Positions 5,861-51,193 of a stretch of 64,000 nucleotides of DNA are shown here, piece after piece. Source of the stretch: Mesobacillus jeotgali (GTDB lineage Bacteria > Bacillota > Bacilli > Bacillales > Cytobacillaceae). Numbering within the stretch: the first letter of the stretch is position 1; every line of letters begins with the position of its first letter. The position numbers and the translations under genes are program-made. Under the pieces are notes generated by a model. That model worked only from the letters and a program-made list of their open reading frames with translations, searched no databases and was not told the DNA's origin. The DNA is taken from contig NZ_FVZC01000009.1 of the NCBI RefSeq assembly GCF_900166585.1, positions 186,001 to 250,000 of the forward strand. The letters are read 5' to 3'.

Positions 5861-6000
5861 CGCTAATTTCCAATTCGCTATTAAAATTAGATTTTCGCTA
5901 TAATAATGAAAAAATCGCTATAAAAAAGAAATTTCCGCTATAAAACTAAAAAACTCGCTATAAAAACAATAATGTCGCTATAAAATCATCGATTTCTCCA
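5861..6000. repeat. 20-bp-period intergenic repeat, core CGCTATAAAA
   Basis: The core CGCTA recurs at 5876, 5896, 5916, 5936, 5956 and 5976, exactly 20 bp apart. Degenerate copies lie at 5861 and 5996. Only about 10 bp of each unit (TCGCTATAAA) is conserved; the rest is A-rich and variable. The repeat lies between convergent asnO and the MATE gene, beyond the asnO terminator. Confidence 0.85.
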
Positions 6001-6044
6001 TATAACAGTGAAACTGGCTGTCACGTCACAGTTTGTTTTTTTCC

Positions 6045-7388
6045 TTAATCTGCAGGAACAAAAGACTTTTTCACCCAAACTCTAGATCTCCAGCGCCAAA
6101 GCATAAGCAACCCGCGCAGCCACTCGTCTGCAATGAAGGCGATCCAGATGCCGACCAGCCCCATCTCAAGATAGATTCCGAGGAAATAGGACAGTGTTAC
6201 GCTGACTCCCCACATTGACAGAATTCCCATATAGACAGGAAACTTCACATCCCCAGCAGCCCTTAGAGAGCTGATTAGGACAAGATTAAAGGATCTGCCA
6301 GGTTCAAGAATGATGGTAAGCAGAATCAAAGTGGTGCCAAGTTCTATGATACTGGGATTATCTGTGAAGATGCCCAGCAGGTTTTTCGAAAAGAAAGAGA
6401 CGATCAACGCTGCGCCAATGGAAATCAATATTGCCAGTTTTAAGCTTTTTAAGGCACGCTTATACGCATTATCAATTTCCTTTGCTCCAACCATATGGCC
6501 AATCAATATCTGTGTACCTTGACTGATTGCGATACTGAAAAGGAAAATGAACATCATGACATTTTGTGTATACACCTTTGCCGTCAACGCCTGGGTTCCA
6601 AGAGTGGCGATAAAATAGGTGATCACCATCTGTGATCCGTTGTAGCTCAAGTGCTCCCCGGCAGAAGGAATTCCGATATTAAGCAGGTTTTTCAAATGCC
6701 TTTTAGGAAAACTGAACAGCATTGAGACTGGCAATGAGCCAGGTATACGTTTAGTCATCACATAAATAGCTGCCAGCAATCCGATGATCCGGCTGACAGT
6801 AGTTGAAATTGCCACACCTTCAACTCCAAGAATAGGAAAACCGAAGGGACCGAAGATGAATAAATAGTTTCCGATAACATTCAGGATGTTCATGCCAATC
6901 GTAACGTACATGATGTCACGCGTAAATCCATAGCTCCGGATAATGCTGCTGACTGTCATGATCAGCGACTGGATGAATGAAAATCCACCCACAATCAGCA
7001 AATAGGAATTTGCTTCATCAAACAATTCAGGGGGCAGGTCCATCATCTTTAGCAATTGTTCGCTAAAAATGAACACACCGGCACTCAGGATTAAACCAAA
7101 AATAAGGTTAGCTCCGATTGAGACTGAGGAAACCTCACGCGCCTCCTGATCCCGTTCTGCACCCAGATTCTGTGCCACAAGGATCGCAGTGCCTGTCGCA
7201 ACGAATCCGAACATGACGATGACCATAGAGAGAATTTGATTGGATACCCCAACAGCTGCCACGGAATTATCTGAATACTGGGACAGCATCAGCGTATCCG
7301 CATTCCCCATCAGCATATAAAGCATAATTTCAATAAAAAGAGGCCAGGTAATGGCAAATAACGATAGTTTTGCAGTTTTTTTCTTCAT
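6045..7388 (-). CDS. yisQ: MATE family multidrug/Na+ antiporter, YisQ-like
   Basis: A 447-residue polytopic membrane protein with about 12 hydrophobic segments arranged as two similar halves, typical of MATE exporters. The N-terminus MKKKTAKLSLFAITWPLFIE and the segment SQYSDNSVAAVGVSNQI are characteristic of the family. The ATG at 7388 is used because GGAGAT lies 9 nt upstream on the minus strand; a frame extension to 7457 has no ribosome site. The substrate cannot be read from sequence. The position after asnO matches yisQ in B. subtilis. Confidence 0.85.
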   Translation of the reverse strand: MKKKTAKLSLFAITWPLFIEIMLYMLMGNADTLMLSQYSDNSVAAVGVSNQILSMVIVMFGFVATGTAILVAQNLGAERDQEAREVSSVSIGANLIFGLILSAGVFIFSEQLLKMMDLPPELFDEANSYLLIVGGFSFIQSLIMTVSSIIRSYGFTRDIMYVTIGMNILNVIGNYLFIFGPFGFPILGVEGVAISTTVSRIIGLLAAIYVMTKRIPGSLPVSMLFSFPKRHLKNLLNIGIPSAGEHLSYNGSQMVITYFIATLGTQALTAKVYTQNVMMFIFLFSIAISQGTQILIGHMVGAKEIDNAYKRALKSLKLAILISIGAALIVSFFSKNLLGIFTDNPSIIELGTTLILLTIILEPGRSFNLVLISSLRAAGDVKFPVYMGILSMWGVSVTLSYFLGIYLEMGLVGIWIAFIADEWLRGLLMLWRWRSRVWVKKSFVPAD

Positions 7389-7502
7389 GTTTTTATATCT
7401 CCATGTTGTAATCCTTTTATTATACAGACAATAGGAGGGATATCGAGTGAAAAACAATCGTTTTCAGAAAAAAATAAAATGAGGATTATATTTACAAAAA
7501 AA

Positions 7503-7595
7503 ATTCCTCGAAACCCAATTGTAATTCCGTGAAAACTATATTTATTCCGCGAAAAAGAGATTTATTTCCGCGGAAAACACCATTAATTCCGCGAA
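7503..7595. repeat. 20-21-bp-period intergenic repeat, core ATTCCGCGAAAA
   Basis: TTCC cores lie at 7504, 7525, 7545, 7566 and 7587, giving periods of 21, 20, 21 and 21 bp. The core ATTCCGCGAAAA is unrelated to the CGCTATAAAA repeat 1.5 kb away, but unit length and A-rich spacers are alike. It lies between the start of the MATE gene and the end of the maltogenic amylase gene. Confidence 0.8.
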
Positions 7596-7645
7596 TTGTG
7601 TTCTCCTACATGGAAAGTGTATTTATTCTCACCATTCAAACAAGC

Positions 7646-7676
7646 AAACCCCTTTCCCAACAGGAAAAGGGGCACT
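7646..7676 (-). terminator. Terminator of the maltogenic amylase gene
   Basis: CCCCTTT-CC and GGAAAAGGGG pair around a short loop immediately downstream of the minus-strand stop codon; TTTGCTTGTTT follows on that strand. Confidence 0.6.
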
Positions 7677-7681
7677 TGAAT

Positions 7682-9469
<1,788 letters not shown>

Positions 9470-9580
9470 TCATAGATTAAAACAAGGGTAGACCACCTAT
9501 TTTGAAATGTCAATTATAAAAAGCCGATTCACAAAAAATTAATTATTTCTCGACTCTGTTAAAAAAAATAAAAAAATTAG

Positions 9581-9608
9581 TTGTCAAAAAGATTTTAGTC
9601 TTTATAAT
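9581..9608 (+). promoter_or_regulatory. Predicted sigma-A promoter of mdxE
   Basis: TTGTCA (9581-9586) and a perfect TATAAT (9603-9608) are separated by 16 bp. Transcription should start near 9615, upstream of both operator-like sites. Confidence 0.75.
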
Positions 9609-9621
9609 AATAAGTAGGTTG

Positions 9622-9635
9622 TGCAATCGTTTTCA
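9622..9635 (+). promoter_or_regulatory. cre-like site (CcpA) in the mdxE leader
   Basis: TGCAATCGTTTTCA matches the cre consensus TGWNANCGNTNWCA at all but the third base. It lies just downstream of the predicted start point, where CcpA would block transcription. Confidence 0.6.
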
Positions 9636-9655
9636 TAGAATTGCAGACAGGATTA

Positions 9656-9665
9656 CAAACGTTTG
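9656..9665 (+). promoter_or_regulatory. LacI-family operator in the mdxE leader
   Basis: CAAAC-GTTTG is a perfect palindrome, extended by T at the left and CACA at the right. The similar GCAAACGGTTGC at 11152 suggests a shared site for the LacI-type regulator encoded at 15298. Confidence 0.6.
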
Positions 9666-9728
9666 CACAGATTGGAAGACTTTCTGCACAATGAAAAGTA
9701 ATTACACATTTTTAGGAGGGGTATACAC

Positions 9729-11006
9729 ATGAAAAAAGCATTGTCAATTTTCATGATGCTGATCTTAATGGTTGGCGCTCTTGCTGCTTGTGGACCTAAA
9801 GAAGAAGAAAACACAGGTTCAAAAGACAACGGCAAGAAAACAGAAGATGCTTCTAAACCAGAGAAGCTGGTAGTTTGGGAAGACAAAGATAAGTCCGGCT
9901 GGCTTGAAAAGGTCGCTGCTGACTTTGAAAAAGAACACGGTATCAAAATCGAGTTCAAAGAAGTTGAAATGGCTACAAAAATGAAAGAGCAATTACGTCT
10001 AGACGGTCCTGCTGGAACTGGCCCGGACATCATCACTCTTCCACATGACCAAATCGGTGAGCTTGCAGTTCAGGGACATATCGCTGAACTTAAGGTAAGC
10101 GACGACGTAAAGAAAACTTTCTCTGAGTCTTCTATCTCTGCACAAACTTTCGATGGTAAATTATTCGGACTTCCAAAGTCTGCTGAAACTCCAGTTTTCA
10201 TCTACAACAAGGCTCTTATGAAAGAAGTTCCTGCTACAATGGAAGATCTATATGAGTTCGCAAAAGCTAACACTAAAGATGGCAAATACGGTTTCCTTGC
10301 ACTTTGGGATAACTTCTACTTTGCACACGCTCCAATCGCTGGCAACGGCGGATATGTTTTCGGGGAAAAAGACGGTGCTCTTAACCCTCAAGATCTTGGC
10401 TTGAACAATGAAGGTGCTGTAAAAGGTACTGAGTACATCCAGAAGTGGTACGCTGAAAAGCTATTCCCTAACGGAATCATCGGCGAAAACGGCGGATCTG
10501 CTATGGACGGACTATTCAACGAAGGTAATGTTGCTTCTGTTATGAACGGACCATGGGCATTCGGCGGCATGAAAGATGCTGGCATCGATTTCGGTGTTGC
10601 TCCATTCCCTAAATTTGCTGATGGCACTCCAATGAAGACTTTCATGGGTGTTAAAGGCTGGCACGTATCTTCTTACTCAAAGAACATTGACTGGGCTACT
10701 AAGTTCCTTGAGTACATCACAAACGACGAAAATGCGAAATACCGTTTCGAGCAAACTTCAGAAGTACCAACAAACGTAGCATTAGTTGACGATCCAGCTC
10801 TTGCTGAAAATGAAGGTGCTAAAGCTGTTGCACTTCAAACCCAAGACGCAGTTCCAATGCCAAACATCCCTGAAATGGGTGAAGTTTGGGCACCAATGGC
10901 AAGTGCATTGCAAACTGTTGTAACAGGCAAAGCTGAGCCAAAAGCTGCTCTAGATTCTGCTGTAAAGCAAATCGAACAAAACATCAAGCAAAACCACTCA
11001 AAATAA
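9729..11006 (+). CDS. mdxE: Maltodextrin-binding lipoprotein
   Basis: A 425-residue ABC-transporter substrate-binding protein. The signal peptide ends in the lipobox LAAC with Cys21 as the lipidation site, followed by a Glu/Lys-rich linker. The mature part follows the maltose-binding protein pattern (SBP family 1), with LVVWEDKDKSGWLEKVAADF near residue 50 and GPDIITLPHDQIG near residue 97. It presents maltodextrins to MdxF/MdxG at the membrane face. Start ATG 9729 has AGGAGGGG at 9714-9721. A weak hairpin and a ~430-bp spacer separate it from mdxF, consistent with higher expression of the binding protein. Confidence 0.93.
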   Translation: MKKALSIFMMLILMVGALAACGPKEEENTGSKDNGKKTEDASKPEKLVVWEDKDKSGWLEKVAADFEKEHGIKIEFKEVEMATKMKEQLRLDGPAGTGPDIITLPHDQIGELAVQGHIAELKVSDDVKKTFSESSISAQTFDGKLFGLPKSAETPVFIYNKALMKEVPATMEDLYEFAKANTKDGKYGFLALWDNFYFAHAPIAGNGGYVFGEKDGALNPQDLGLNNEGAVKGTEYIQKWYAEKLFPNGIIGENGGSAMDGLFNEGNVASVMNGPWAFGGMKDAGIDFGVAPFPKFADGTPMKTFMGVKGWHVSSYSKNIDWATKFLEYITNDENAKYRFEQTSEVPTNVALVDDPALAENEGAKAVALQTQDAVPMPNIPEMGEVWAPMASALQTVVTGKAEPKAALDSAVKQIEQNIKQNHSK

Positions 11007-11024
11007 TAGCATCAAATGATATAG

Positions 11025-11050
11025 CAGTACCTCCCATTGTGGGGGTACTG
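11025..11050 (+). terminator. Weak terminator/attenuator after mdxE
   Basis: CAGTACC (11025-11031) pairs with GGTACTG (11044-11050), with CTCCC/GGG extending it. Only TTGTATTTT follows, so partial read-through into mdxFG is plausible. Confidence 0.55.
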
Positions 11051-11151
11051 TTGTATTTTACAGTAGAAAATTCCAGAATCTGTTTTTTTCGTAAGCGGAA
11101 ATTGAAAGTCACAAAGTTTACGAATTCTGCAGTAAAAAAGTCTTTCATTGA

Positions 11152-11163
11152 GCAAACGGTTGC
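11152..11163 (+). promoter_or_regulatory. Second LacI-type operator, between mdxE and mdxF
   Basis: GCAAACGGTTGC is an imperfect palindrome close to the site at 9656. A possible -10 TAGAAT at 11166-11171 directly follows, so this may control an internal promoter for mdxFG. Confidence 0.5.
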
Positions 11164-11184
11164 GCTAGAATAGAGATAAGTCAA

Positions 11185-11289
11185 TCAGATGCTTCATGAG
11201 AGTGAAAACAAGAGATTTCGGAATAATACAGAGAGTTAGGAACTCATTCTGTATGGATGATAATGTATTCGTTCTCATAAAGCATCTGA
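11185..11289 (+). ncRNA. Nested inverted repeats in the mdxE-mdxF spacer (possible structured leader)
   Basis: A 17-nt arm at 11185-11201 (TCAGATGCTTCATGAGA) pairs with 11273-11289 with one mismatch. Inside lies a second hairpin, ACAGAGAGTT (11228-11237) with AACTCATTCTGT (11241-11252). Together they would form a ~105-nt stem-loop upstream of mdxF. No known riboswitch or T-box motif was recognised. Confidence 0.45.
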
Positions 11290-11440
11290 TGCTTTTACCA
11301 AGGCGGATTATCGGATTGAATGTTGTTCATCAAATGTTATGGTTGCGAGAATCAAAAGATCCTCATTAACTTACCGATGGGAGCAGCAACGTTTACGAAA
11401 ATAGCCTTATCAATCATAGAAAGAGAAAGGGGAATATAGG

Positions 11441-12724
11441 ATGAAAGAGAAGTCCTATCAAACCAACCACCGCAGAATAGCAACAGCCCTTTCGATTATT
11501 CCTGGGCTAGGACAGCTATACAACAAGCAATACTTAAAAGGAACTGCTTTCCTGATCTTGACTGGTGCATTCTTCGGAGTGTTCTCAGACCTGCTGAACA
11601 TGGGATTATGGGGATTGTTTACTCTTGGGGAGCAAACACCGCGTGACCATTCCATCTTCTTGATGGTTGAGGGGATCCTGGCCCTCATTGTCCTGCTTTT
11701 TGGAATCGGTTTCTATCTATTCAACCTAAACGACGCTTATAAGGTCGGATTGAAAAGGGACGCAGGTGAACGCCTGAGCACAGTAAAGGAACAATACAAT
11801 AACCTGATTGACAATGGTTTCCCTTACTTAATCATGTCACCTGGATTCCTGCTTCTCATTTTTGTTGTAGTTTTCCCAATTATTTTCGTAGTGCTGCTCG
11901 CTTTCACTAACTACGATCTATATCATTCACCGCCTGCAAAACTTGTTGACTGGGTCGGGCTTAAAAACTTCTTTGACCTGTTCCAGCTGCAGTCATGGCG
12001 TGAGACATTCTTCTCGGTTCTTTCCTGGACGATCATCTGGACATTTGTCGCAACTACTTTGCAGGTAGCTTTAGGTATGTTCCTGGCGATCCTGGTGAAT
12101 CAGAAGGATGTAAAAGGAAGGGCAATTATCCGTACAGTTTTCATCCTTCCTTGGGCAGTTCCGGCATTCGTTTCAATCCTTGTATTTGCTGGTATGTTCA
12201 ATGAATCATTCGGTGCCATCAACCGCGACATCCTTGGTATGTTTGGAATCGATCCAATTCCATGGATGACCGAAGCGATGTACACGAAAATAGCCTTGAT
12301 ACTGATTCAGACATGGCTTGGATTTCCGTTTATTTTTGCAATGACGACAGGAGTCCTTCAATCCATTCCGGAAGAATTGTATGAAGCTGCCACAGTGGAC
12401 GGCGCAACAAACTTCCAGAAATTCAAGAATATCACTTTGCCGCTCGTGCTATTTGCTACAGCGCCAATCCTAATTACGCAATACACATTCAACTTCAATA
12501 ACTTTAATATCATTTATCTCTTCAACGGCGGAGGACCTGCAGTTTCAGGCGCAAATGCCGGCGGAACAGACATCCTGATTTCGTGGATTTACAGCCTGAC
12601 CATGACTTCTGCACAATATTCCAAAGCCGCTGCCATCACCATGCTGCTATCACTGATTGTTATTGGTGTAGCTCTGTGGCAGTTCAAGAGAACGAAATCA
12701 TTCCAAGAAGAGGATATGATGTAA
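11441..12724 (+). CDS. mdxF: Maltodextrin ABC transporter permease, MalF-type
   Basis: A 427-residue polytopic membrane protein. The N-terminal ~130 residues form an extra membrane region beginning with a TM2-like motif (GLGQLYNKQYLKG). The permease core follows, with the cytoplasmic EAA loop ELYEAATVDGATNFQKFKNI near residue 310 that contacts the ATPase. It pairs with MdxG to import maltodextrins delivered by MdxE. No ATPase gene lies here; in relatives MsmX serves in trans. Start ATG 11441 follows AAAGGGG. The gene ends two bases before mdxG, so the two are translationally linked. Confidence 0.93.
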   Translation: MKEKSYQTNHRRIATALSIIPGLGQLYNKQYLKGTAFLILTGAFFGVFSDLLNMGLWGLFTLGEQTPRDHSIFLMVEGILALIVLLFGIGFYLFNLNDAYKVGLKRDAGERLSTVKEQYNNLIDNGFPYLIMSPGFLLLIFVVVFPIIFVVLLAFTNYDLYHSPPAKLVDWVGLKNFFDLFQLQSWRETFFSVLSWTIIWTFVATTLQVALGMFLAILVNQKDVKGRAIIRTVFILPWAVPAFVSILVFAGMFNESFGAINRDILGMFGIDPIPWMTEAMYTKIALILIQTWLGFPFIFAMTTGVLQSIPEELYEAATVDGATNFQKFKNITLPLVLFATAPILITQYTFNFNNFNIIYLFNGGGPAVSGANAGGTDILISWIYSLTMTSAQYSKAAAITMLLSLIVIGVALWQFKRTKSFQEEDMM

Positions 12725-12725
12725 T

Positions 12726-13568
12726 ATGAGTATCAAACGACAGAAATATATCAGATTGACATTAACGTATCTTGTGATTTTGGTCATGTTCGCTATTATT
12801 ATTTATCCGCTCCTTTGGATTGTCGGATCTTCCTTCAACCCAGGGCAGAGTTTGTCTGGTTCAAACATCATCCCAAAAAATGCGACGCTCGCACACTATA
12901 AGGAACTTTTTGATACCAGCAAGAGCGCGTACTTATACTGGTACTGGAATTCATTGAAAGTCAGTGTTCTGACAATGCTGTTCACTGTCATCCTTGTTAG
13001 CTTGACAGCCTATTCATTCTCACGCTACCGTTTTATCGGACGTAAAAACAGCTTGATGACATTCCTGATTCTGCAGATGATTCCAAACTTTGCAGCATTG
13101 ATCGCTATTTTCATCCTTGCTTTACTAACTGGCTTACTTGATACTCATTTAGGCTTGATCCTTGTATATGTCGGGGGCGCAATCCCGATGAATACATGGT
13201 TAATGAAAGGATATCTTGATACAATTCCGAAAGAGCTTGATGAATCAGCTAAAATGGACGGTGCAGGCCATTTGAGGATTTTCTTCCAAATCGTCATGCC
13301 GCTTGCGACACCAATCATAGCGGTTGTAGCATTGTTCGCATTTATCGCTCCATTCGGTGATTTCATCCTTGCCAGAATTCTTTTAAGAACAGAAGAAAAA
13401 TACACACTTGCTGTTGGCCTTTATGACATGGTAGCAAAACAGTTTGGTGCTGAATTCACTACCTTCGCAGCGGGTGCTGTTCTCATTGCAGTTCCAATCG
13501 CAATCCTGTTCCTGTCATTCCAGAAATACTTCGTATCAGGATTGACGGCTGGCGGAACAAAAGGATAA
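12726..13568 (+). CDS. mdxG: Maltodextrin ABC transporter permease, MalG-type
   Basis: A 280-residue inner-membrane permease with six predicted helices and the EAA-loop motif IPKELDESAKMDGAG near residue 170, typical of MalG. It forms the channel with MdxF. Its ATG lies directly after the mdxF stop, and the ribosome site (GAAGAGG) lies inside mdxF. A hairpin lacking a U tract follows, so transcription probably continues into the amylase gene. Confidence 0.93.
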   Translation: MSIKRQKYIRLTLTYLVILVMFAIIIYPLLWIVGSSFNPGQSLSGSNIIPKNATLAHYKELFDTSKSAYLYWYWNSLKVSVLTMLFTVILVSLTAYSFSRYRFIGRKNSLMTFLILQMIPNFAALIAIFILALLTGLLDTHLGLILVYVGGAIPMNTWLMKGYLDTIPKELDESAKMDGAGHLRIFFQIVMPLATPIIAVVALFAFIAPFGDFILARILLRTEEKYTLAVGLYDMVAKQFGAEFTTFAAGAVLIAVPIAILFLSFQKYFVSGLTAGGTKG

Positions 13569-13590
13569 TCTATTAGGGCAGACAAATTTT

Positions 13591-13618: not shown

Positions 13619-13639
13619 AAATTATGAGGAGGAGCGGAG

Positions 13640-17258: not shown

Positions 17259-17414
17259 AGAACATATCACTCCTTCTATTTATATCCCATTTATTAGATT
17301 CCTTTAAAACCCAGAGTGAAAACATGGAAATTCCTTCTTTTTGTTATCGAGGGTAAATAAGAACGGCCCAGCTTGTAATCGATTTCTCTTGGTTTATGAC
17401 AGAGGAGCCGAAAA

Positions 17415-17819
17415 GGTAGAGTGCAAAACGGTAAAGACAGAAGCTCTGCATTCCCCAAAAAAGTGAAAGGGAGTGCAAAACGGTAAAAGCAGAAGCTCTC
17501 CATTGCCCGAAAAAGGGAAAGGGAGTGCAAAACGGTAAAAGCAGAAGCTCTGTATTGCCGAAAAAGTAAAAGGGAGTGCAAAACGGTAAAGACAGAGTCT
17601 CTGCATTCCCCAAAAAAGTGAAAGGGAGTGCAAAACGGTAAAAGCAGAAGCTCTTCTTTGCCCGAAAAAGGGAAAGGGAGTACAAAACGGTAAAAGCAGA
17701 AGCTCTGCATTGCCCGAAAAGTGAAAGGAAATGTAAAACGGTAAAAGCAGAAGCTCTGCATTGTCCCAAAAAGTGAAAAGGAGTGCAAAAACGGTAAAAG
17801 CAGAAGCTCTGCATTTAGC
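17415..17819. repeat. 51-52-bp tandem array, about 8 units, core GTGCAAAACGGTAAA
   Basis: GTGCAAAACGGTAAA or close variants begin at 17421, 17473, 17525, 17576, 17628, 17680, 17731 and 17783, with periods of 51-52 bp. Each unit carries the small inverted repeat GCAGA-AGC-TCTGC and a purine-rich tract. All three minus-strand frames stay open through the array, but these translations are repetitive and not credible proteins. The array begins right after the terminator of the CoA-disulfide reductase gene. Confidence 0.9.
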
Positions 17820-24389: not shown

Positions 24390-24581
24390 TTACTTGTTTT
24401 CAATTGAATTCAGCTCGTCCTGAAATGACCTAAGCTGCTCTTTTTCCGCCATCGTTGTATTGGCATAAGCGGAAGAAAGAGCATTTTTCGCTGTGCTGAT
24501 GGCTGCAGATTGTTCAGCCGGCTCCGCAGTCTTGGCTAATTGAACAGCCTTCCTTGCTTCTTGAAAAAGCCTGTTTCCCAT
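24390..24581 (-). CDS. DUF3813-like small protein
   Basis: A 63-residue, probably all-helical protein starting MGNRLFQEARKAVQLAKTA, rich in Ala and Glu. It resembles DUF3813 proteins of Bacillus, of unknown role. Its ATG follows the stop of the upstream gene with no gap (TAA-ATG). Its ribosome site GGAGG lies in the last codons of that gene, so translation of the two should be coupled. Confidence 0.75.
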   Translation of the reverse strand: MGNRLFQEARKAVQLAKTAEPAEQSAAISTAKNALSSAYANTTMAEKEQLRSFQDELNSIENK

Positions 24582-24734
24582 TTAGACTCCTCCTAAAGAG
24601 GACTCTCTGACATTCGCCATCTTTTGAGCTTCAGCTTCGGCATACGTGGTGTGGTAAGGGATTCTTTGATCATGCTTGGAGACAGTATCTACCCCTTGCT
24701 GTACAAAACGCTTGGATTTATTACTTTTACCCAT
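24582..24734 (-). CDS. Small conserved-looking protein of unknown function (50 aa)
   Basis: A 50-residue basic protein starting MGKSNKSKRFVQQGVDTV and ending SSLGGV, with a His/Tyr-containing middle (YHTTYAEAEAQKMANVRE). A strong GGAGGGG lies 7 nt before ATG 24734. Similar short proteins in Bacillus are annotated only as cytosolic or hypothetical. It is co-translated with the DUF3813-like gene. Confidence 0.7.
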   Translation of the reverse strand: MGKSNKSKRFVQQGVDTVSKHDQRIPYHTTYAEAEAQKMANVRESSLGGV

Positions 24735-24895
24735 CGTTGTACCCCTCCATCTACGAGCGAATTTTGAAACAGACAATCACGCTGCTTCAAACATAGTATG
24801 CACTTTTGCTGGAAAAACAATCGCTTCAGGGAACGTTCGATTTTGGCAGGTTCAGACAATTTTTTAGCAGCCAACCGAAATCAGGAGGGAAAGCC

Positions 24896-26290
24896 AAGTA
24901 TCCGATAGCGGCATTCTATCGGCCAAACTGAACAGGCGGCAGGGCAAAAATAGTCCAATAGAGGCTTTATATCGGCCAAACAGAGCAGGAAAGAAAGGCA
25001 AAAGTGTCCGTTAGAGCATTCCTATCGGCCAAACGGACCAGGAAGGAAAGCAAGAATGTCCGATAGAGCCAGCCTATCGGACAAACGGAACCAGGAGGTA
25101 TAAGCAAAGTGTCCGATAAAGCCTTCCTATCGGACAAACGGACCAGGAAGGAAAGCAAGAATGTCCGATAGAGCCAGTCTATCGGACGAGCGGACCAGGT
25201 TGTAAAGCAAGAATGTCCGATAGAGCCAGCCTATCGGACAAACGGAACCAGGAGGTATAAGCAAAGTGTCCGATAGAGCCTTCCTATCGGACAAACGGAC
25301 CAGGAAGGAAAGCAAGAATGTCCGATAGAGCCAGTCTATCGGCCAAACGGAGCCAGGAGGTATAAGCAAAGTGTCCGATAGAGCCTTCCTATCGGACAAA
25401 CGGACCAGGAAGGAAAGCAAGAATGTCCGATAGAGCCAGCCTAACGGCCAAACGGAGCCAGGAGGTATAAGCAAAGTGTCCGATAGAGCCTTCCTAACGG
25501 CCAAACGGAACCAGGAGGTATAAGCAAAGTGTCCGATAAAGCCTTCCTATCGGACAAACGGACCAGGAAGGAAAGCAAGAATGTCCGATAGAGCCAGTCT
25601 ATCGGACGAGCGGACCAGGTTGTAAAGCAAGAATGTCCGATAGAGCCAGTCTATCGGCCAAACGGAGCCAGGAGGTATAAGCAAAGTGTCCGATAGAGCC
25701 TTCCTAACGGCCAAACGGAACCAGGAGGTATAAGCAAAGTGTCCGATAAAGCCTTCCTATCGGCCAAACGGACCAGGAAGGAAAGCAAGAATGTCCGATA
25801 GAGCCAGCCTATCGGACAAACGGAACAGGTTGTAAAGCAAAAATGTCCGATAGAGCCAGTCTATCGGACAAACGGAGCCAGGAGGTATAAGCAAAGTGTC
25901 CGATAGAGCCTTCCTATCGGCCAAACGGACCAGGAAGGAAAGCAAGAATGTCCGATAGAGCCAGCCTAACGGACAAACAGAACCAGGAGGTATAAGCAAA
26001 GTGTCCGATAGAGCCTTCCTATCGGACAAACGGAACCAGGAGGTATAAGCAAAGTGTCCGATACAGCCTTCCTATCGGACAAACGGAACCAGGAGGTATA
26101 AGCAAAGTGTCCGATAGAGCCTTCCTATCGGCCAAACGGACCAGGAAGGAAAGCAAGAATGTCCGATAGAGACAGCCTATCGGACAAACGGAACAGGTTG
26201 TAAAGCAAGAATGTCCGATAACTCCATTCTATAGGACAAACAGGCCAGTCATAAAAGCAAAAATGCCCGATAGAAATCTTCTCCGGGCGT
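24896..26290. repeat. 52-53-bp tandem array, about 27 units, core TGTCCGATAG
   Basis: TGTCCGATA or variants recur every 52 or 53 bp from 24899 to 26264. Most units contain TGTCCGATAG, a 7-nt loop such as AGCCTTC, and CTATCGGACA, a perfect 10-bp stem. The linker alternates mainly between GGACCAGGAAGGAAAGCAAG and GGAACCAGGAGGTATAAGC types, with a rarer GGTTGTAAAG type. Units at both ends are more degenerate than those in the middle. Long open frames on the minus strand are repetitive and not genes. Confidence 0.95.
26256..26288 (-). terminator. yitU terminator formed by the last array unit
   Basis: GCCCG (26265-26269) and CGGGC (26284-26288) pair; on the minus strand ATTTTTGCT follows. The stem sits in the degenerate end unit of the array. 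Confidence 0.5.
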
Positions 26291-28671: not shown

Positions 28672-29796
28672 ATGTTTGATAGAGATTTTAATAAAGACCC
28701 ATTCATTGTGATCTGGGAACTTACGAGAGCCTGCCAATTGAAATGCCTGCACTGTCGTGCGGAGGCACAATATAGAAGAGATCCTCGTGAACTGTCTTTC
28801 GAAGAAGGGAAGGCGCTTATTGATCAAATATACGAAATGAATAATCCAATGCTAGTTTTTACAGGCGGCGACCCATTGATGAGGGAGGACGTATTCGGGA
28901 TTGCTGAGTACGCGGTGAAAAAGGGCGTCCGCGTATCAATGACACCAAGCGCGACTCCTAATGTAACGAAAGAAGCCATTGAAAAAGCGAAAACAGTCGG
29001 GCTTTCACGCTGGGCTTTCAGCATCGACGGCCCAACCGCAGAAGTCCACGACCACTTCAGGGGAACAGCTGGCTCCTTTGATTTAACAATGGAAAGAATC
29101 AAATACTTGCATGAACTGGAAATTCCGATTCAGATCAATACTGTAATTTCCCGTTATAATATTGAATATTTAGATGAGATGGCAAAGATGGTAGAGGACT
29201 TAGATTGTGTCCTATGGAGTGTTTTCTTCCTTGTCCCGACAGGTCGTGGCCAGGAAAAGGACATGATTTCTCCTGTTGAGCATGAAAAAGTGTTCCAGTG
29301 GCTTTATGATCTCAGTAAACGGGTGAAATTCGATATTAAAACAACTGCGGCTCAGCACTATCGACGGGTGGTCATCCAGCAAAAGATGCGGGAGGCCAAA
29401 AATCATACTGAAGAAATCGATTACTTGACTGCCCTGACAAAGGAAGGATTGACAGGGTCCATTGATGGTCTTGGCCGGGCGCCAAAAGGTGTCAATGATG
29501 GCAATGGCTTTGTATTCATTTCACACATAGGGGACGTCTATCCGAGCGGCTTGCTGCCCGTTAAAGCGGGGAATGTACGCGAACAGCCGCTTGCTGATAT
29601 ATATAGGGAATCACCTGTGTTCAAGTCATTGAGGAATCCAGATGAATTCAAAGGTAAATGCGGGGTTTGTGAGTTCAGGCATGTATGCGGCGGGTCTCGT
29701 TCAAGGGCATATGCCATGACAGGGGATTACCTGGAGAGTGAACCGTTCTGCGTATATATTCCGAAAGCACTGAGAAAACAAAAGCAAGAAAGCTGA
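28672..29796 (+). CDS. Radical SAM/SPASM protein, TIGR04053-like (heme-synthesis related family)
   Basis: A 374-residue radical SAM enzyme. The [4Fe-4S]/SAM motif CQLKCLHC lies near residue 22-29 and the glycine-rich VFTGGDPLM follows. The C-terminus has a SPASM-type cluster region (CGVCEFRHVCGG and a final Cys in SEPFCVY). It resembles the AhbD/NirJ group that modifies heme side chains and especially the TIGR04053 family found near nitrate-respiration genes. The exact reaction is unknown. ATG 28672 has AAGGAGG 8 nt upstream; the frame runs further upstream without a site. An Fnr box predicts anaerobic expression. Confidence 0.85.
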   Translation: MFDRDFNKDPFIVIWELTRACQLKCLHCRAEAQYRRDPRELSFEEGKALIDQIYEMNNPMLVFTGGDPLMREDVFGIAEYAVKKGVRVSMTPSATPNVTKEAIEKAKTVGLSRWAFSIDGPTAEVHDHFRGTAGSFDLTMERIKYLHELEIPIQINTVISRYNIEYLDEMAKMVEDLDCVLWSVFFLVPTGRGQEKDMISPVEHEKVFQWLYDLSKRVKFDIKTTAAQHYRRVVIQQKMREAKNHTEEIDYLTALTKEGLTGSIDGLGRAPKGVNDGNGFVFISHIGDVYPSGLLPVKAGNVREQPLADIYRESPVFKSLRNPDEFKGKCGVCEFRHVCGGSRSRAYAMTGDYLESEPFCVYIPKALRKQKQES

Positions 29797-29870
29797 AATA
29801 GCGGAAAAAAGGCCGGAAAGCCAGATTAGCGAAAAAATAGCAGGAAAGCCAAAAAAGCAGTTCTTGCCAA
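29797..29870. repeat. Two copies of a 28-bp A/G-rich repeat
   Basis: TAGCG-AAAAA...GGAAAGCC occurs at 29799 and 29827, 28 bp apart, with a partial third copy. It starts directly at the stop codon of the radical SAM gene and lies before its terminator. Confidence 0.55.
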
Positions 29871-33799: not shown

Positions 33800-33922
33800 G
33801 GTGGGCGATATAAGTGAACAAGTGGCTGATATATTCACAAATCTGGCCGATATATATTCGCAAAAGTGGTCGATAAATCCTGAATTGCGGCCGATAAGTT
33901 TCAGAATTTGGCCGATAAAATG
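33800..33922. repeat. 21-bp-period intergenic repeat, core GTGGCCGATA
   Basis: GATA cores at 33807, 33828, 33849, 33872, 33893 and 33914 are 21 or 23 bp apart. The consensus is GTGGCCGATAAATTC with variable filler. It lies between the moaA terminator and cls; the rest of the 370-bp gap shows nothing else clear. Confidence 0.8.
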
Positions 33923-42106: not shown

Positions 42107-42117
42107 AGGAGGATTAT

Positions 42118-43353: not shown

Positions 43354-43366
43354 AGGGGCGGATTCT

Positions 43367-44140: not shown

Positions 44141-45294
44141 GTCATTTATTCCCTACGTATCAAAGATGGGAGATCGAGCCTGAGAAGGCGAGCGGTACTG
44201 TTATTTACGCTAAAGATGGACGTGAATATCTGGATTTCACTTCGGGAATTGGTGTTTGCAATCTTGGTCATCGACCTGAAGCTGTTGAACAGGCTGTCAA
44301 AGAGCAGCTCGAATTATTTTGGCATGTATCAAATCTTTTTCCGCAATCCATCCAGGAAGAAGCGGCCACGAAGCTTGCGGCAGCATCTGGCTTGGACTAT
44401 GTTTTTTTCGCCAATAGCGGGGCAGAAGCAAATGAAGCGGCAATAAAAATGGCACGAAAAGCGACTGGCAGGACTAAAATCATTACCTTCCTTCAATCAT
44501 TTCACGGAAGGACATTTGCAGGCATGGCAGCTACCGGTCAGGAGAAAATCAAGCAGGGTTTCGGCAGCATGCTCGAAACTTTTATACACCTTCCATTCAA
44601 TGACTTGGAAGCTTTAAGTAAAGAAATTGATTCCGATACAGCGGCAGTCATGATCGAGATGGTCCAGGGGGAAGGCGGAATTCATGTCGTTACTGCCGAT
44701 TTTATAAAAGAAGCCTCCAGGATATGCACAGAAAATGGGGTCCTGCTTATTGTAGATGAAATCCAGACAGGAATCGGCCGCACAGGAAAGCCATTTGCCT
44801 TTCAGCACTTCGATATTTCACCAGATATCATAACGGTTGCTAAAGGACTTGGTAATGGCCTGCCTATTGGGGCGGCAATCGGAAAAATGGAACTGGCAGA
44901 ACATTTCGGGCCTGGAAGCCACGGCTCTACATTCGGAGGGAATCCAATCAGCACAGCCGCAGCATCAGCTGTAATGGACATCATCTTTGACGAAAAGTAC
45001 CTGACAGAGGTCACCGCCAAAGGGGAATTGTTATTTCAACTGCTGGATAAGGAGCTTGGCAGTTTAGGAGCAGTAAAAGAAATTAGAGGCCTCGGCTTAA
45101 TGGCAGGAATCGAATTAACTGTTGCGGCCCCACCGATACTCGCACAATTGAGGAAGTCGGGATTAATCGCCTTGCCTGCAGGAGAAAAGGTCATCAGGCT
45201 TCTCCCGCCACTAAGTGTAAGTGCTGAAGAGCTTGAAAAGGCTGTCTTAATAATGAAAGATAATATAGTAAAGACAACTGTAACAGCTTCATAG
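44137..45294 (+). CDS. argD: Acetylornithine aminotransferase
   Basis: A 385-residue PLP-dependent class III aminotransferase making N-acetylornithine. It shows the NSGAEANEAAIKMAR motif, SFHGRTFAGMAATGQ, the cofactor-binding VDEIQTGIGRTGKPFAF and the Schiff-base Lys in TVAKGLGNGLPIGA. Translation is coupled to argB through ATGA. A 72-bp AT-rich spacer with ArgR-like boxes separates it from carA. Confidence 0.95.
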   Translation: MSHLFPTYQRWEIEPEKASGTVIYAKDGREYLDFTSGIGVCNLGHRPEAVEQAVKEQLELFWHVSNLFPQSIQEEAATKLAAASGLDYVFFANSGAEANEAAIKMARKATGRTKIITFLQSFHGRTFAGMAATGQEKIKQGFGSMLETFIHLPFNDLEALSKEIDSDTAAVMIEMVQGEGGIHVVTADFIKEASRICTENGVLLIVDEIQTGIGRTGKPFAFQHFDISPDIITVAKGLGNGLPIGAAIGKMELAEHFGPGSHGSTFGGNPISTAAASAVMDIIFDEKYLTEVTAKGELLFQLLDKELGSLGAVKEIRGLGLMAGIELTVAAPPILAQLRKSGLIALPAGEKVIRLLPPLSVSAEELEKAVLIMKDNIVKTTVTAS

Positions 45295-45308
45295 CTGTAT
45301 ATTTTTAA

Positions 45309-45350
45309 ATATAAAATGCATAAAAATTAATTTAAATAAATTTTTATCCA
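45309..45350 (+). promoter_or_regulatory. ARG box-like sites upstream of carA
   Basis: ATGCATAAAAATTAATTT and AATAAATTTTTATCC resemble paired ArgR operators, suggesting separate control of carAB-argF. Confidence 0.5.
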
Positions 45351-45366
45351 ACTGGAGAGGTGACTG

Positions 45367-46446
45367 ATGAAAGGATATTTGCATCTGGCTGACGGCAAGA
45401 CGTTTGAGGGACAGCTGCCTGGTTTACTAGGCGAAGAGGAAATAGCCGGTGAAATTGTATTTTTTACAGGGATGACTGGTTATCAGGAGGTACTGACGGA
45501 TCCTTCCTATAAGAACCAAATCATTGTGTTCACTTACCCTTTGATCGGCAATTATGGCATAAATAAACAGGATTTTGAAAGCAAAAAACCGCATGTTGCA
45601 GCCGTGATTGTCTGCGAAGCTGCAAAAGAGGCCTATCATTATGAGGCTAATTATTCATTTACAGAGTATCTCGATAAATGGAATATTCCTGTCCTCGAAC
45701 ATGTAGATACTCGTGAGCTTGTAAAAAACATCCGTGAAAAGGGCACGATGCCCGCAATATTATCGAACCGGCCTGAATGTGATTCTTACTTTGACTCATT
45801 TAACAGCCTTAAGGTGAAAGAGGTCTCAATCAAGTCGCCCGAAACAATCGGAATGGGTAATACACATATTGTACTGGTAGACTATGGTTTCAAAAAGTCG
45901 ATAGCCGACTATCTCGTAAAACAAAAATGCCTGGTTACAATTGTGCCTTATGATTATAGCTTTGAACAAATTTCTGCACTGAAGCCTGATGGGGTGCTTT
46001 TATCCAATGGACCGGGCGACCCGAAAGAGTTGATAAATCAGCTGCCGGAGATCAGGAAAGCAGCCGAATACTACCCTGTGTTAGGAATCTGTCTTGGCCA
46101 CCAGCTTGCTGCCCTTGCTTTCGGAGCGGATACGAAAAAGATGCTTTTCGGACATCGTGGAGCAAACCAGCCTGTATTCGACGTCACAGGAAACCGTGTA
46201 TTCATGTCATCACAAAACCACAGCTATATGGTCGATCAAAAAAGCCTGGGAAACACAGGCTTAAAAATACGCTTCCTGAACAAAAATGACCAGTCGATCG
46301 AGGGGCTTTATCACGAAAAACTGCCTTTGATGACAGTCCAGTTCCATCCTGAAGCAAGTCCGGGACCTGAAGACAGCATTTTCATATTTGAAGAATTCAT
46401 CAACACAGTAAAATACAGAAAGCGGAGAGAAGTCAGCTATGCCTAA
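45367..46446 (+). CDS. carA: Carbamoyl-phosphate synthase small (glutaminase) subunit, arginine-type
   Basis: A 359-residue class I glutamine amidotransferase that delivers ammonia to CarB. An N-terminal CPSase small domain is followed by the glutaminase with the nucleophile Cys in LGICLGHQLAALAFG and the catalytic His-Glu in VQFHPEASPGPED. Location in the arg operon indicates the arginine-regulated isozyme rather than the pyrimidine one. CTGGAGAGG precedes ATG 45367. It overlaps carB by 8 bp. Confidence 0.95.
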   Translation: MKGYLHLADGKTFEGQLPGLLGEEEIAGEIVFFTGMTGYQEVLTDPSYKNQIIVFTYPLIGNYGINKQDFESKKPHVAAVIVCEAAKEAYHYEANYSFTEYLDKWNIPVLEHVDTRELVKNIREKGTMPAILSNRPECDSYFDSFNSLKVKEVSIKSPETIGMGNTHIVLVDYGFKKSIADYLVKQKCLVTIVPYDYSFEQISALKPDGVLLSNGPGDPKELINQLPEIRKAAEYYPVLGICLGHQLAALAFGADTKKMLFGHRGANQPVFDVTGNRVFMSSQNHSYMVDQKSLGNTGLKIRFLNKNDQSIEGLYHEKLPLMTVQFHPEASPGPEDSIFIFEEFINTVKYRKRREVSYA

Positions 46447-49400
46447 GGATACTAGCGTTAAATCGATATTGGTAATAGGTTCTGGTCCGATCATCATCGG
46501 CCAGGCGGCAGAATTTGATTATGCGGGAACCCAGGCCTGCATCGCGCTTAAGGAAGAAGGCTATCGGGTCATCCTTGTCAATAATAATCCGGCCACCGTT
46601 ATGACAGATCATGTTTTTGCAGACGCAGTCTATTTTGAACCAATGACGGTAGAAAGCGTGGAGAAGATCATTCAACGTGAACGGCCAGATGGCATTCTGG
46701 GCACACTGGGCGGCCAGGCAGGTCTTAATCTGGTGTTCAGACTGAGTGAGGAAGGAATCCTCGAAAAATATTGTGTGAAAGTACTTGGCACTTCAGTGGC
46801 GAGCATCAAGCAAGGGGAGGACAGGGAAGCATTCCGGAGCCTGATGCATAAGCTGAATGAACCTGTACCAGAAAGCGAGATTGTCCAATTAGTTGAAGAA
46901 GCTGTTGCTTTTGCAGAAAAAATCGGCTTTCCCCTGATTGTACGCCCAGCCTACACATTAGGAGGCACTGGAGGGGGAATTGCTGGAAATATGGAAGATT
47001 TGATTTCCCTTGTTTCAGGCGGGTTAAATGAGAGCCCAATCAATCAATGCCTTGTTGAAAGAAGTATTGCCGGATTTAAAGAAGTTGAATATGAAATGAT
47101 GCGGGATGCAGAAGGTACCTGTATCGCCATATGCAATATGGAGAATATTGACCCGGTCGGCATCCATACTGGGGACTCCATTGTGGTAGCTCCTTCCCAA
47201 ACGCTGACAGACCGTGAGTATCAAATGCTCAGAACTTCAGCTGTTAAAATCATTTCTGCTTTAGGAATCGTCGGCGGATGTAACATCCAGTTTGCCCTTG
47301 ACCCAGATAGCAAGAATTATTACTTGATTGAAGTAAATCCAAGGGTCAGCCGCTCGTCCGCACTGGCCTCAAAAGCGACAGGATACCCGATTGCCCGCAT
47401 GGCAGCAAAACTGGCAGTCGGATATAGCCTGGCAGAGATAAAAAATCCAGTAACAGGCAATACCTTTGCCAGCTATGAGCCGGCTCTGGATTATATTGTA
47501 GTGAAAATCCCGAAATGGCCGTTTGAACAATTCCCCCAAATAGACCGGACCCTCGGGACACAAATGAAGGCAACTGGTGAAGCAATGGCCATTGACCGAA
47601 GCTTTGAACGAGCGTTCATCAAAGCCGTCCGGTCACTTAACATCAAAACAATGGACTTGAAGCTTCCTGCAATTGCGGATTTTAGCGTTGAAGAGCTGTA
47701 CAGATTGGCAGCAAATCAGACAGATCAGCGTATTTTTGCTTTGCTGGAGCTGATGCGAAGGGGCGAACAAATCAAGGATCTGCATGAAGAAACAAAAATT
47801 GATCGATTTTTTCTGGGGAAATTTAAATCAATCATTGAATTGGAGGAGAAGATTGAAGACCAAAACTTTGAGGAAATTACTGCTTCCGAGCTTAGAGTTT
47901 TGAAAGAAAAAGGATTCAGCGATGCTTTTCTATCCTCAATATGGGATGTTTCAGAGAAAGAAGTCCGGGAACTCCGTAAACAATACGAGGTCATGCCGGT
48001 GTATAAGATGGTTGATACATGTGCTGCTGAATTTGAATCAGCTTCCAATTATTTTTACTCCAGCTATCTCGGAGCAAATGAGGCGGCGGCTAAAAGTGGA
48101 AAGCGAAAGGTTCTTATCATTGGCAGCGGCCCAATCAGCATAGGGCAAGGAGTTGAATTTGACTATTGCTCTGTTCACGGTGTATTTGCTCTTAAGGAAG
48201 AAAATGTTGAAACAATTATGATCAATAATAATCCCGAGACAGTGAGTACAGATTTCGCGACATCTGATCGCCTGTATTTTGAGCCATTAACCCTGGAAGA
48301 TATTTTGAATGTGATCGAACTGGAAGGCATTCATGAAGTCATTGTTCAGCTGGGAGGCCAGACAGCTTTAAATCTAGCAAAAGGGCTCGAAGAAGAAGGG
48401 ATAGAACTGTTAGGAACGAGCTCCGGGACAATCGATGTATTTGAGGACAGAGATCAGTTTTACCAGTTAATGGATAAACTGAAAATCCCGAGAGTAAAAG
48501 GAGAGACAGCCGCGAATCAGGAAGAATTGCAGAATGCAGCCGAGCGCCTGGGTTATCCGGTGCTGATCAGGCCGTCGTATGTTATTGGCGGGCTGAATAT
48601 GGTTGTGATTCAAAATCACCAGGAATTGAAAAGGGTAATGGAGAGCGGGAAAGTTCAATTTCCAATCCTGGTTGACCAGTATCTTGAGGCCAGGGAGGCA
48701 GAGCTTGATCTCGCTGCAGACGGTGAGCATGTTTTAATTCCCACGATCGTAGAACATATTGAAAAAACCGGTGTCCATTCGGGCGACAGCTTTTGTATAC
48801 TCCCTGCCCAAAGCTTCCCCCAGGAGACAAAAAAGTTGATGGCAGATTATGCAAAAAGAATCGTGTGCGCACTTAAATACAAAGGGTTAATGAATATCCA
48901 ATTCATTGTGAAAGGAACCGAAGTGTACTTGCTCGAAGTCAACCCGCGTTCAAGCAGGACTATGCCGATCGTTAGCAAGGTAGCCGGAGTTGATTTAGTG
49001 AATAAAGCGACAAAAATATTGCTCGGGAAATACTTTTTGTCGAAAGACGAAATCGTGCTAGATTCTGATTCGCCTTTTGTCTGCGTTAAACATCCAGTGT
49101 TTTCGAATTTCGCATTGAAAGGGCTTGATAGTAAAACAGGTCCGCAGATGATTTCTACAGGCGAGGGTATTAGTATCGGATCTTCTTTTCAAGAAGCCAT
49201 CAATAAAAGCTTCCATTCGATAAATGGAAAGAATGTTCAAGGCCCGATTGCCTTTGCTGACAAAAATGTTCTATTTGAAATGACGAACCAGTTCCCATCT
49301 GCAGTTCTTGTTGATTTCGATTACCTCACTGACTATACCCAGATCTCTGCACTTTACTGCCCTGGAGCAACGGAAAAGGACATCGCTTTAAGGGAGTGGG

Positions 49401-49540
49401 CAGTAAAAAACCGAAAAATCATATTGACCCATGCAGAAACCTTAATTGCATTTTTAGAAAGCAGTAGCGTGGAAGATTGGAATGTGAAATCACTGGATGA
49501 ATGGCTGACAGAAAATAATGAGGAAGTGACTATAAAATGA
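46439..49540 (+). CDS. carB: Carbamoyl-phosphate synthase large subunit, arginine-type
   Basis: A 1033-residue enzyme made of two homologous ATP-grasp halves. Each begins with a nucleotide-binding [10 protein letters not shown] motif (near residues 12 and 558). The ATP-grasp loops include [12 protein letters not shown] and [12 protein letters not shown], and the metal-binding [12 protein letters not shown] and [11 protein letters not shown]. The allosteric C-terminal domain is short, as in the arginine-specific CarB of B. subtilis. AGCGGAGAG upstream and the overlap with carA suggest tight coupling. Confidence 0.95.
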
Positions 49541-50493
49541 CATCATTGCAGCAGGTGGAGATCGATTTAAAAGGGAAGGATTTATTAACACTCGCTGATT
49601 TAGAAAAATTTGAGATTATGGCATTGCTGGAAAAGGCGCTTTTGCTGAAGGAGAAGACCTTGAAAAAACAATTTGACCAGCCTTTAAAAGGAAAAATTCT
49701 CGGAATGATTTTCGATAAATCATCGACTCGTACCAGGGTATCCTTTGAAGTCGGCATGATCCAGCTTGGAGGAAGCGCATTATATTTAAATGGAAATGAT
49801 CTTCAATTGGGGAGAGGTGAATCGCTAAGCGATACGGCTCAAGTCCTTTCTCAGTATCTTGATGGCATCATGATCCGTACATTTTCTCATAAAGCGATTG
49901 AGGAACTGGCAGAACATGCAGATATACCAGTCATAAATGGATTGACCGATATGTATCACCCTTGCCAGGCACTGGCCGATCTAATGACGATATACGAAAA
50001 AAAGGGCAAGCTGGCAGGCCTTAAGCTTGCATATATCGGGGATGGCAACAATGTCGCTCACTCGTTGATGATCGCCTGCACAAAAGTTGGCATGGACATA
50101 TCGCTTGCATGTCCAAAAGGGTATTTCCCTGATTCTGAAATTACATCGCTTTGTGAAGGTTATGCATCCGAGAGCGGTGCAAAGCTTGTTATTACAGAAT
50201 CTCCTTCAGATGCTGTCGCTGATGCAGATGTGATTTACACAGATGTATGGACCAGCATGGGGCAGGAAAGCGAGAACGAAAAAAGATTAAAGGATTTTCA
50301 AGATTTTCAGGTAAATGCTGAATTGCTAAAGACTGCAAAAGAAGATTACCTGTTCATGCACTGTCTCCCGGCTCATCGTGATGAAGAAGTAACCGCAGAA
50401 GTAATAGACGGAAAGCATTCCGTCGTCTTCGATCAGGCAGGAAATCGACTGCATGCGCAAAAAGCATTGCTGGTGGAAATTTTAAAAGATTAA
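49537..50493 (+). CDS. argF: Ornithine carbamoyltransferase
   Basis: A 318-residue transcarbamoylase making citrulline. The carbamoyl-phosphate loop is [14 protein letters not shown], and [28 protein letters not shown] and the ornithine-site [11 protein letters not shown] motif are intact. It overlaps carB by 4 bp and ends the operon. argG and argH are not here. A 51-bp tandem array starts about 20 bp after the stop. Confidence 0.95.
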
Positions 50494-50513
50494 ATTGAGT
50501 GGGTGATGGTGAA

Positions 50514-51193
50514 GAAGGGAATTTTATAAGCCTGAATGGAGCTAGAGGAAAGAAAAAGGTCACATAGAAAAATTCTATAAACCCAAAAGGGAGTTCGGAG
50601 CTTCAAAAGGTCACATAGAAAAATTCTATAAGCCCAAAAGGGAGTTCGGATCTTTAAAAGGTCACATAGAAAAATTCTATAAGCCCAAAAGGGAGTTCAC
50701 AGCTACAAAAGGTCATAAAGAAAGATTCTATAAGCCCAAATGGAGCTCGAGAACAGAAAAAGGTCACATAGAAAAATTCTATAAGCCCAAATGGAGCTCG
50801 AGAACAGAAAAAGGTCACATAGAAAGATTCTATAAGCCCAAAAGGGAGTTCGGAGCTTCAAAAGGTCACATAGAAAAATTCTATAAGCCCAAAAGGGAGT
50901 TCGGAGCTTCAAAAGGTCACATAGAAAAATTCTATAAGCCCAAAAGGGAGTTCGCAGCCACAAAAGGTCAAATAGAAAAATTCTATAAGCCCAAAAGGGA
51001 GTTCGGAGCTTTAAAAGGTCACATAGAAAAATTCTATAAACCCAAAAGGGAGTTCGGAGCTTCAAAAGGTCACATAGAAAAATTCTATAAGCCCAAAAGG
51101 GAGTTCGGAGCTACAAAAGGTCACATAGAAAAATTCTATAAGCCCAAATGGAGCTCGAGAACAGAAAAAGGTCACATAGAAATTTTATAAGCC
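50514..51193. repeat. 51-bp tandem array, about 13 units, core GGTCACATAG
   Basis: GGTCACATAG or variants begin at 50559, 50609, 50660, 50711, 50762, 50813, 50864, 50915, 50966, 51017, 51068, 51119 and 51170: one 50-bp step, then 51 bp throughout. Each unit contains ATAGAA-AAA-TTCTAT and a purine-rich AAAAGGGAGTTCGGAGC or AAATGGAGCTCGAG variant. Because 51 is a multiple of 3, a long minus-strand frame remains open, which is an artefact. The array lies immediately 3' of argF. Confidence 0.95.

Follow-up and report, generated by a model that had tools for sequence, protein, structure and literature searches.

Two size classes of tandem repeat have been described in the genus Bacillus by Subirana and Messeguer (2021, PMC8161180), who listed 4029 repeats in 176 genomes, 781 of them with units of 20-21 nt and 1886 with units of 51-53 nt. 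The repeats were constant in size, variable in sequence and mostly non-coding, and their function was left unexplained; the shorter unit was noted to equal two helical turns, nucleoid proteins or small RNAs were proposed, and an RNA-seq signal in B. coagulans was stated. B. selenatarsenatis, a near relative of the species studied here, was listed with 30 and 49 arrays. Here we analysed a 64,000-nucleotide stretch of Mesobacillus jeotgali (contig NZ_FVZC01000009.1, positions 186,001 to 250,000), called the window below, in which an earlier note had pointed out seven intergenic repeat clusters and had taken them for a set without previous description. All seven were recovered at or very near the places given, by Tandem Repeats Finder (TRF) and in the raw sequence, while the supposed novelty was mistaken, both size classes being in print. 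The window clusters belong to this published Bacillaceae satellite class, and a 28-bp array lies outside both sizes, as had been said. Common to the published satellites and to those of the window are two unit sizes, unrelated sequences at a fixed size, non-coding location, several families per genome, short characteristic words occurring with their reverse within one repeat, and partial conservation between strains (PMC8161180). Here, too, unit length was restricted, location was non-coding, sequence varied between families at constant size, and conservation between close genomes was partial, these genomes being species of one genus and not strains.

The published puzzle is why unrelated Bacillaceae repeats keep one of two unit sizes. 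What is new here is that units unrelated in sequence tend to share a 10.4-bp A/T rhythm and that the long class tends to be oriented with replication; both point to a constraint at the level of the DNA and make the puzzle testable. The main text of PMC8161180 contains no internal 10.4-bp signal, replication polarity, comparison of core with spacer or switch of class at one orthologous gap, and no report on the strand polarity or helical phase of such repeats was found in titles and abstract openings of the open-licence literature. Replication polarity and the division of the unit into core and spacer were not mentioned in the earlier note either.

The two classes were examined genome-wide in a sample of 1,649,571 of the 4,626,523 bases, made up of 20-kb stretches and the window, with TRF arrays kept from 2.4 copies, a score of 50 and a period of 10 upwards, and with genes called by our own codon-usage script. 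Among the 88 arrays obtained, 73 were non-coding and 15 coding. Non-coding periods were 19-21 bp in 26 arrays, 51-53 bp in 38, 105 bp in one and other values in eight, so that the two classes, with the 105-bp array counted in, made up 65 of 73; the window cluster at 33829 fell below the copy cut-off and stands outside this count. All 15 coding arrays had a period divisible by three and none a period of 51-53 bp. An even spread of periods had been named beforehand as grounds for giving up the idea, and was not seen. Two arrays were peculiar: one of 86-bp period at G000:C9:139984-140270, for which TRF also gave 44 bp, looked by eye as if 21-bp units of the GGYCGATA kind had been doubled, and a coding array at G000:C8:218292-218936 held about 30 copies of a 21-bp unit, presumably in a protein with seven-residue repeats.

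The intergenic placement that had been claimed was confirmed, and the long class was also found to avoid divergent gaps. Of the 38 arrays of the 52-bp class with two called neighbours, divergent gaps, which make up 151 of 835 gaps, held only one (Fisher p 0.008), and convergent gaps, which make up 104 of 835, held 13 (p 0.0007); in tandem gaps, 16 of 24 were closer to the 3' end of the upstream gene than to the next start. No such bias was observed for the 21-bp class (3/26 divergent, 5/26 convergent).

To compare units across families, the 38 long units were grouped into 11 families by a circular alignment similarity higher than any of 60 shuffled pairs gave, and the threshold for the 21-bp class was set by hand (0.72). 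An initial clustering by shared words was discarded, as it put the 38 long units together in a single cluster and left the 26 short ones in just two; the family-level 10.4-bp tests made on these faulty clusters were not significant (p 0.11, 0.25). The Fourier power of A/T along the circular unit peaked at the fifth harmonic in the 52-bp class and at the second in the 21-bp class, both corresponding to about 10.4 bp. In the 11 families of this genome the 10.4-bp power was 0.082 versus 0.040 in shuffled units (reached by 2 of 2000 shuffles), and a dinucleotide-preserving null gave 0.039 and was reached in none of 1000. The same was seen in the 20 families formed by 27 published consensus units (0.108 versus 0.038, 0/2000), in nine units in seven families of other genera (0.085 versus 0.039, 6/2000) and in 14 families of the 21-bp class (0.249 versus 0.101, 0/2000), with the second harmonic the largest in 6 of these 14. 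As background, 5801 non-array intergenic 52-mers gave 0.045 and coding 52-mers 0.039. Since the published set is periodic as well, the signal is firm, and units of unrelated families are shown to share, on average, a 10.4-bp A/T modulation.

The 52-bp class was purine-rich on the leading strand in 35 of 39 arrays, with a mean of 0.62 compared with 0.51-0.53 in other intergenic DNA. Where the plus strand leads (positive GC skew, genes mostly on plus), the purine-rich strand was plus in 24 of 25 arrays, and in the other sampled arm it was minus in 11 of 14. At the family level, the mean leading-strand purine fraction exceeded one half in 10 of 11. In convergent and head-on gaps the effects of replication and transcription can be told apart, and the arrays there followed replication (convergent 13/13, head-on 4/4; divergent and unassigned 1/1 each); transcription as the source of polarity in this class was therefore rejected. 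Nine arrays of other genera were also compared with local GC skew, and seven agreed.

A further line of evidence came from the asymmetric core of the argF family, ATAGAAANATTCTATAAGCCC, which was searched in seven genomes. No match was found in G006 and G020; all 14 loci in the four complete relatives with matches (6, 5, 2 and 1) had it on the leading strand, with matches grouped by eye, dnaA located, the terminus assumed opposite, and orthologous loci not all independent. Three loci of this family outside the argF gap, each with one core by exact matching alone (inexact neighbouring copies were not looked for), were polar too (G003:1649332, G008:3334533, G010:3796285). In the 21-bp class, 40 of the 50 TCGCTATAAAA loci among the matches listed in five genomes had the core on the leading strand, and the two remaining 21-bp families in the window were mixed in strand by eye. 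The gene context of 19 chosen TCGCTATAAAA loci in five genomes (10 exceptions and 9 consistent) gave no clean rule.

The earlier note had assigned one inverted repeat and one purine-rich tract to every long unit, which holds for most of them and not for all. Read in leading-strand orientation, 26 of the 38 long consensus units had an inverted repeat equalled by at most 5% of 60 shuffles; the mean dyad score was 7.6 versus 4.5 in shuffled units, and the remainder of the unit was 72% purine. The dyad spanned 27 nt in nine of the 38 units and 14-47 nt in the others. An imperfect TGTC..GACA dyad, with the same span as the dyad of the window array at 24882, was seen by eye in the published families coagulans 8_52_18, litoralis 42_52_9 and thermoamylovorans 30_53_11. 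At the orthologous loci of argF, of the HAD hydrolase and of CoA-disulfide reductase, core identity was 0.87, 0.91 and 0.90 versus spacer identity of 0.54, 0.61 and 0.76, with the core set by hand at 31, 27 and 27 columns and the comparison made in 7/7, 8/10 and 5/10 of the genomes with a 52-class array there, the omitted ones carrying another family. At these three loci the unit stayed at 51-53 bp across species while the spacer diverged. The long unit is thus shown to consist of a core, about 27-31 bp long and for the most part dyad-symmetric, and a purine-rich spacer whose length is kept and whose sequence drifts.

Length was preserved within arrays as well: 28 arrays of the 52-bp class held 186 indels, 174 of them single-base, to 1507 substitutions (0.12), whereas four array-free gaps had 75/269, 27/98, 92/270 and 88/125 (0.28-0.70); 13 arrays of the 21-bp class had 34 indels to 187 substitutions. 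The finder itself may favour regular arrays, and we take the depletion as support, not as proof. In the argF family the dyad retains a T.C mismatch, present in 20 of the 23 distinct cores that a search by the centre alone brought up, which speaks against pure base pairing, and in the TGTCCG family A.A was the commonest pair opposite the seventh position of the dyad (41 of 142 distinct cores).

At one and the same orthologous gap, a family can give way to an unrelated one, and one size class to the other. The flanks of the CoA-disulfide reductase gap were recognisable in all 14 genomes of the genus. Seven of these had arrays of one 52-bp family in the gap, six had a different 52-bp family that looks unrelated, and the last had a 21-bp array; remnants are included, and G014 and G015, missed by the pattern scan, were assigned by reading the sequence. 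At least six changes are needed on a 20-protein tree, with the sisters G004/G008 and G010/G015 differing. In the gap between the asparagine synthase and MATE genes, four genomes had 20-bp arrays and three had a 53-bp family, with a single unit in one more; G014 was placed here by the array beside its MATE gene. In G008 this gap held, in addition, a Mutator-family (Transposase_mut) gene between two 53-bp arrays of one family (L246:10852-12027), where an insertion sequence seems to have landed within the array. The HAD gap carried at least one unit of its own family in 13 of 14 genomes by pattern, and other 52-bp families in G004 and G016. Copy number at one orthologous gap ranged from about one unit to 26, a change that the earlier note had asked to be looked for.

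A DNA-level architectural element is the explanation that we favour, although with rather less than even confidence, its function being inferred. The arrays would act as DNA and not as RNA, presenting a helically phased, bendable and polar stretch to a wrapping or architectural protein, for which gyrase, an HU-like protein, SMC or a translocase are candidates. The site of action would be behind genes, where replication meets transcription-driven supercoiling. If a mechanical property is read more than the sequence, as we propose, unrelated units of equal length could substitute for one another, and the higher-order periods and copy-number differences suggest that arrays grow and shrink by unequal exchange. 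The wider proposal is more doubtful: possibly both classes are one sequence-independent part of the chromosome, with helix-phased A/T over two or five turns, selected length, interchangeable units and, in the long class, replication polarity, forming a polar element of Firmicutes that handles supercoils or segregation and is recognised by its shape. If true, a shape-read, replication-oriented chromosome element would be added to the Firmicutes.

Several observations weigh against this explanation. The fifth harmonic was the largest of the first ten in only 7/11 families of this genome, 12/20 published families and 4/7 families of other genera, and in the last group the seventh harmonic was larger on average (0.123 vs 0.085). 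Period peaks at helical multiples had been proposed as a test, and they were found at two and five turns with the three-turn class absent. Exact phase is missed by units of 51 and 53 bp, for which the implied repeat is 10.2 and 10.6 bp. The claim that every unit faces the same side of the helix is consequently weak, since such arrays drift in opposite senses and three turns are unpopulated; what stands of the helical idea is the 10.4-bp periodicity in unrelated families. Polarity was also incomplete. Leading-strand purine richness was seen in 16 of 20 co-directional gaps, two of the nine arrays of other genera (L071 and L100) opposed it, the 21-bp class had no purine polarity (16/26), and only the TCGCTATAAAA family of that class was seen to track replication. 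Conservation of the core suggests some reading of the sequence too, and several genomes lack any given array. To our knowledge, gyrase action is not known to be polar.

The main rival, a serious one although we regard it as somewhat unlikely, is that the arrays are non-adaptive replication satellites, in which units prone to forming hairpins multiply through slippage on the lagging-strand template, in a single orientation, survive where no gene is broken and owe their unit length to the geometry of slippage. It would explain the strand polarity, the dyads beyond shuffling, the higher-order periods of 105, 210 and 420 bp and the wide range of copy number. It fits poorly with cores that are kept while spacers drift, with the depletion of indels and with the polarity of the three argF-family loci with a single exact core, and it offers no reason for the 10.4-bp A/T rhythm.

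Less probable is a role as polar transcription stops. Read against the fork, many long units form a hairpin followed by a T-rich tract and could end head-on or antisense transcription; with loops of up to 20 nt, 154 sites were found in the head-on sense versus 57.5 in shuffled units, and 24 versus 10.3 in the other sense. A scan placed 12 sites on the minus strand of the array at 24882, and the preference of long arrays for convergent gaps would also suit termination. However, sites occurred in at least half of the units in only 15 of 38 arrays, and in 5 of 38 when loops were limited to 8 nt. Under the latter limit the five arrays of the argF family had 0, 0, 2, 0 and 0 sites, yet this family is strictly polar, and the two of the CoA-disulfide reductase family had 0 and 0. 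The array at 7503 lies past a terminator-like site of its upstream gene; one such site before the array at 17409 was seen by eye, and the scan found none. In addition, PMC8625621 describes the arrays as widely transcribed in B. coagulans.

The same report, together with the RNA-seq signal mentioned above, would agree with the proposal of Subirana and Messeguer that arrays are transcribed into structured small RNAs, as would the dyads. We nevertheless consider this quite improbable for the arrays described here: their orientation tracks replication and not the neighbouring gene, no Rfam match was obtained in the window at the gathering threshold, and the mismatch in the argF-family dyad is conserved.

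REP-like non-autonomous mobile units (REP, repetitive extragenic palindromic), spread by a Y1 (HUH) transposase on the lagging-strand template and then amplified locally, are very unlikely: polarity with replication, the recurrence of families at several loci with other spacers and the swapping of unrelated families at one gap would fit them, but the survey of Y1_Tnp (matched in 18 of the 21 genomes, the exceptions being G016, G019 and G020, of which G016 has two arrays of about six units, possibly inherited) and the test for GTAG/CGTC REP tags, which flank 1 of 33 dyads, gave no support. The M. jeotgali genome itself has four similarly scoring Y1_Tnp (IS200-type) matches, at G000:C9:369882, 692304, 1664926 and 2035810.

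An element read by shape and polarity fits these facts better; RNA, mobile element and terminator each fail a test for part of the arrays. The interpretation in the earlier note, as a whole, is partly supported by these results.

The seven clusters were then placed among their neighbours, which were named with NCBIfam; no tRNA genes were found in the window. The cores had been called unrelated, and the convergent architecture without shared sequence was borne out, while not all cores are unique, as detailed below for two long arrays. The three 20-21-bp clusters have short cores for which pattern counts showed a high background in reversed controls (14 vs 26, 17 vs 26, 27 vs 112); single matches were given no weight, and palindromic cores were counted on both strands. 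The 20-bp array at 5861-5985 (+), with the core TCGCTATAAAA (TRF 5875-5985, 4.6 copies), occupies the convergent gap between asparagine synthase (+) and a MATE transporter (-), and an array of its family is also present in the orthologous gap of G006, G012 and G020. Named relatives closest to the MATE gene region belong to the Mesobacillus clade (selenatarsenatis, boroniphilus, subterraneus). Two records, L025 (titled Chryseobacterium) and L022 (titled Cytobacillus oceanisediminis 2691), match the window MATE gene at 94%, and L039, another record of C. oceanisediminis 2691, matches it at 73%, so the titles of L025 and L022 look wrong. The 21-bp array at 7503-7595 (+), core TTCCGCGAA (TRF 7524-7595, 3.5 copies), sits between the MATE gene and a cyclomaltodextrinase-like gene, and G003, G006, L023, L027 and L033 have an array of its family in the orthologous gap. 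The third array of the short class, at 33801-33919 (+), has the core TGGCCGATA and a period of 21-23 bp and lies between moaA and cardiolipin synthase; the array proper, 33829-33919, was split by TRF into 2.0 and 2.3 copies, and six cores were seen by eye. Among 13 relatives, TGGCCGATA was matched in the orthologous gap of G018 only (three matches, subject to the background of short-core patterns).

Among the long arrays, the 52-bp array at 17409-17815 (+) has the core GGTAAAAGCAG..CTGCATTGCCC and is purine-rich on the plus strand (TRF 17419-17815, 7.7 copies); it lies 3' of CoA-disulfide reductase (-), and an SDR oxidoreductase was also named among its neighbours. The 52-53-bp array at 24882-26274 (+), 26.6 copies of the dyad core TGTCCGATAG-N7-CTATCGGACA with a purine-rich spacer, is 3' of a Cof-type HAD hydrolase gene (-) and is the one in which TRF detected the higher-order periods. 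Relatives of its core, listed in the earlier note under 24896, were found at C9:450377, 839004 and 849541 and at C8:158670. Between the plus-strand gene and this array, at 24400-24760, two short minus-strand frames look by eye like small spore-type proteins. The 51-bp array at 50514-51194 (+), core GGTCACATAGAAAAATTCTATAAGCCC with a purine-rich spacer (TRF 50554-51194, 12.6 copies), is 3' of argF (+), which follows carAB, and its core recurs at C9:116816 and 573076. The remaining array, at 29774-29858 (+), consists of three imperfect, purine-rich 28-bp units (3.0 copies, 71% match). Among 14 genomes the orthologous gap measured 198 bp in one and 74-141 bp in the other 13, and no array of at least 2.4 copies was found in it by TRF in 13 relatives; this array looks lineage-specific. 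A radical SAM protein was also among the named neighbours of the clusters.

Compared with other known systems, the arrays resemble REP sequences and the bacterial interspersed mosaic elements (BIMEs) built from them in being extragenic palindromes, with regular spacing in BIMEs, and in the supercoiling and termination roles hypothesised for these. They differ in the tag, which stands beside only one of the 33 dyads, in being head-to-tail where BIME units are described as alternating, and in comprising many unrelated families at one fixed period. A constant and a variable part are shared with CRISPR arrays, to which the satellites were also compared in PMC8161180; here, in contrast, the spacers of one array resemble each other and vary from species to species, and the period is about 52 bp. 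The SpoIIIE recognition octamer was too rare in the C9 and C8 sample to matter. The FtsK-orienting polar sequences (KOPS) and the SpoIIIE recognition sequences are polar chromosome motifs, purine-rich and oriented with replication, and the long arrays are like them in both respects; those motifs are short and single, whereas the arrays are not.

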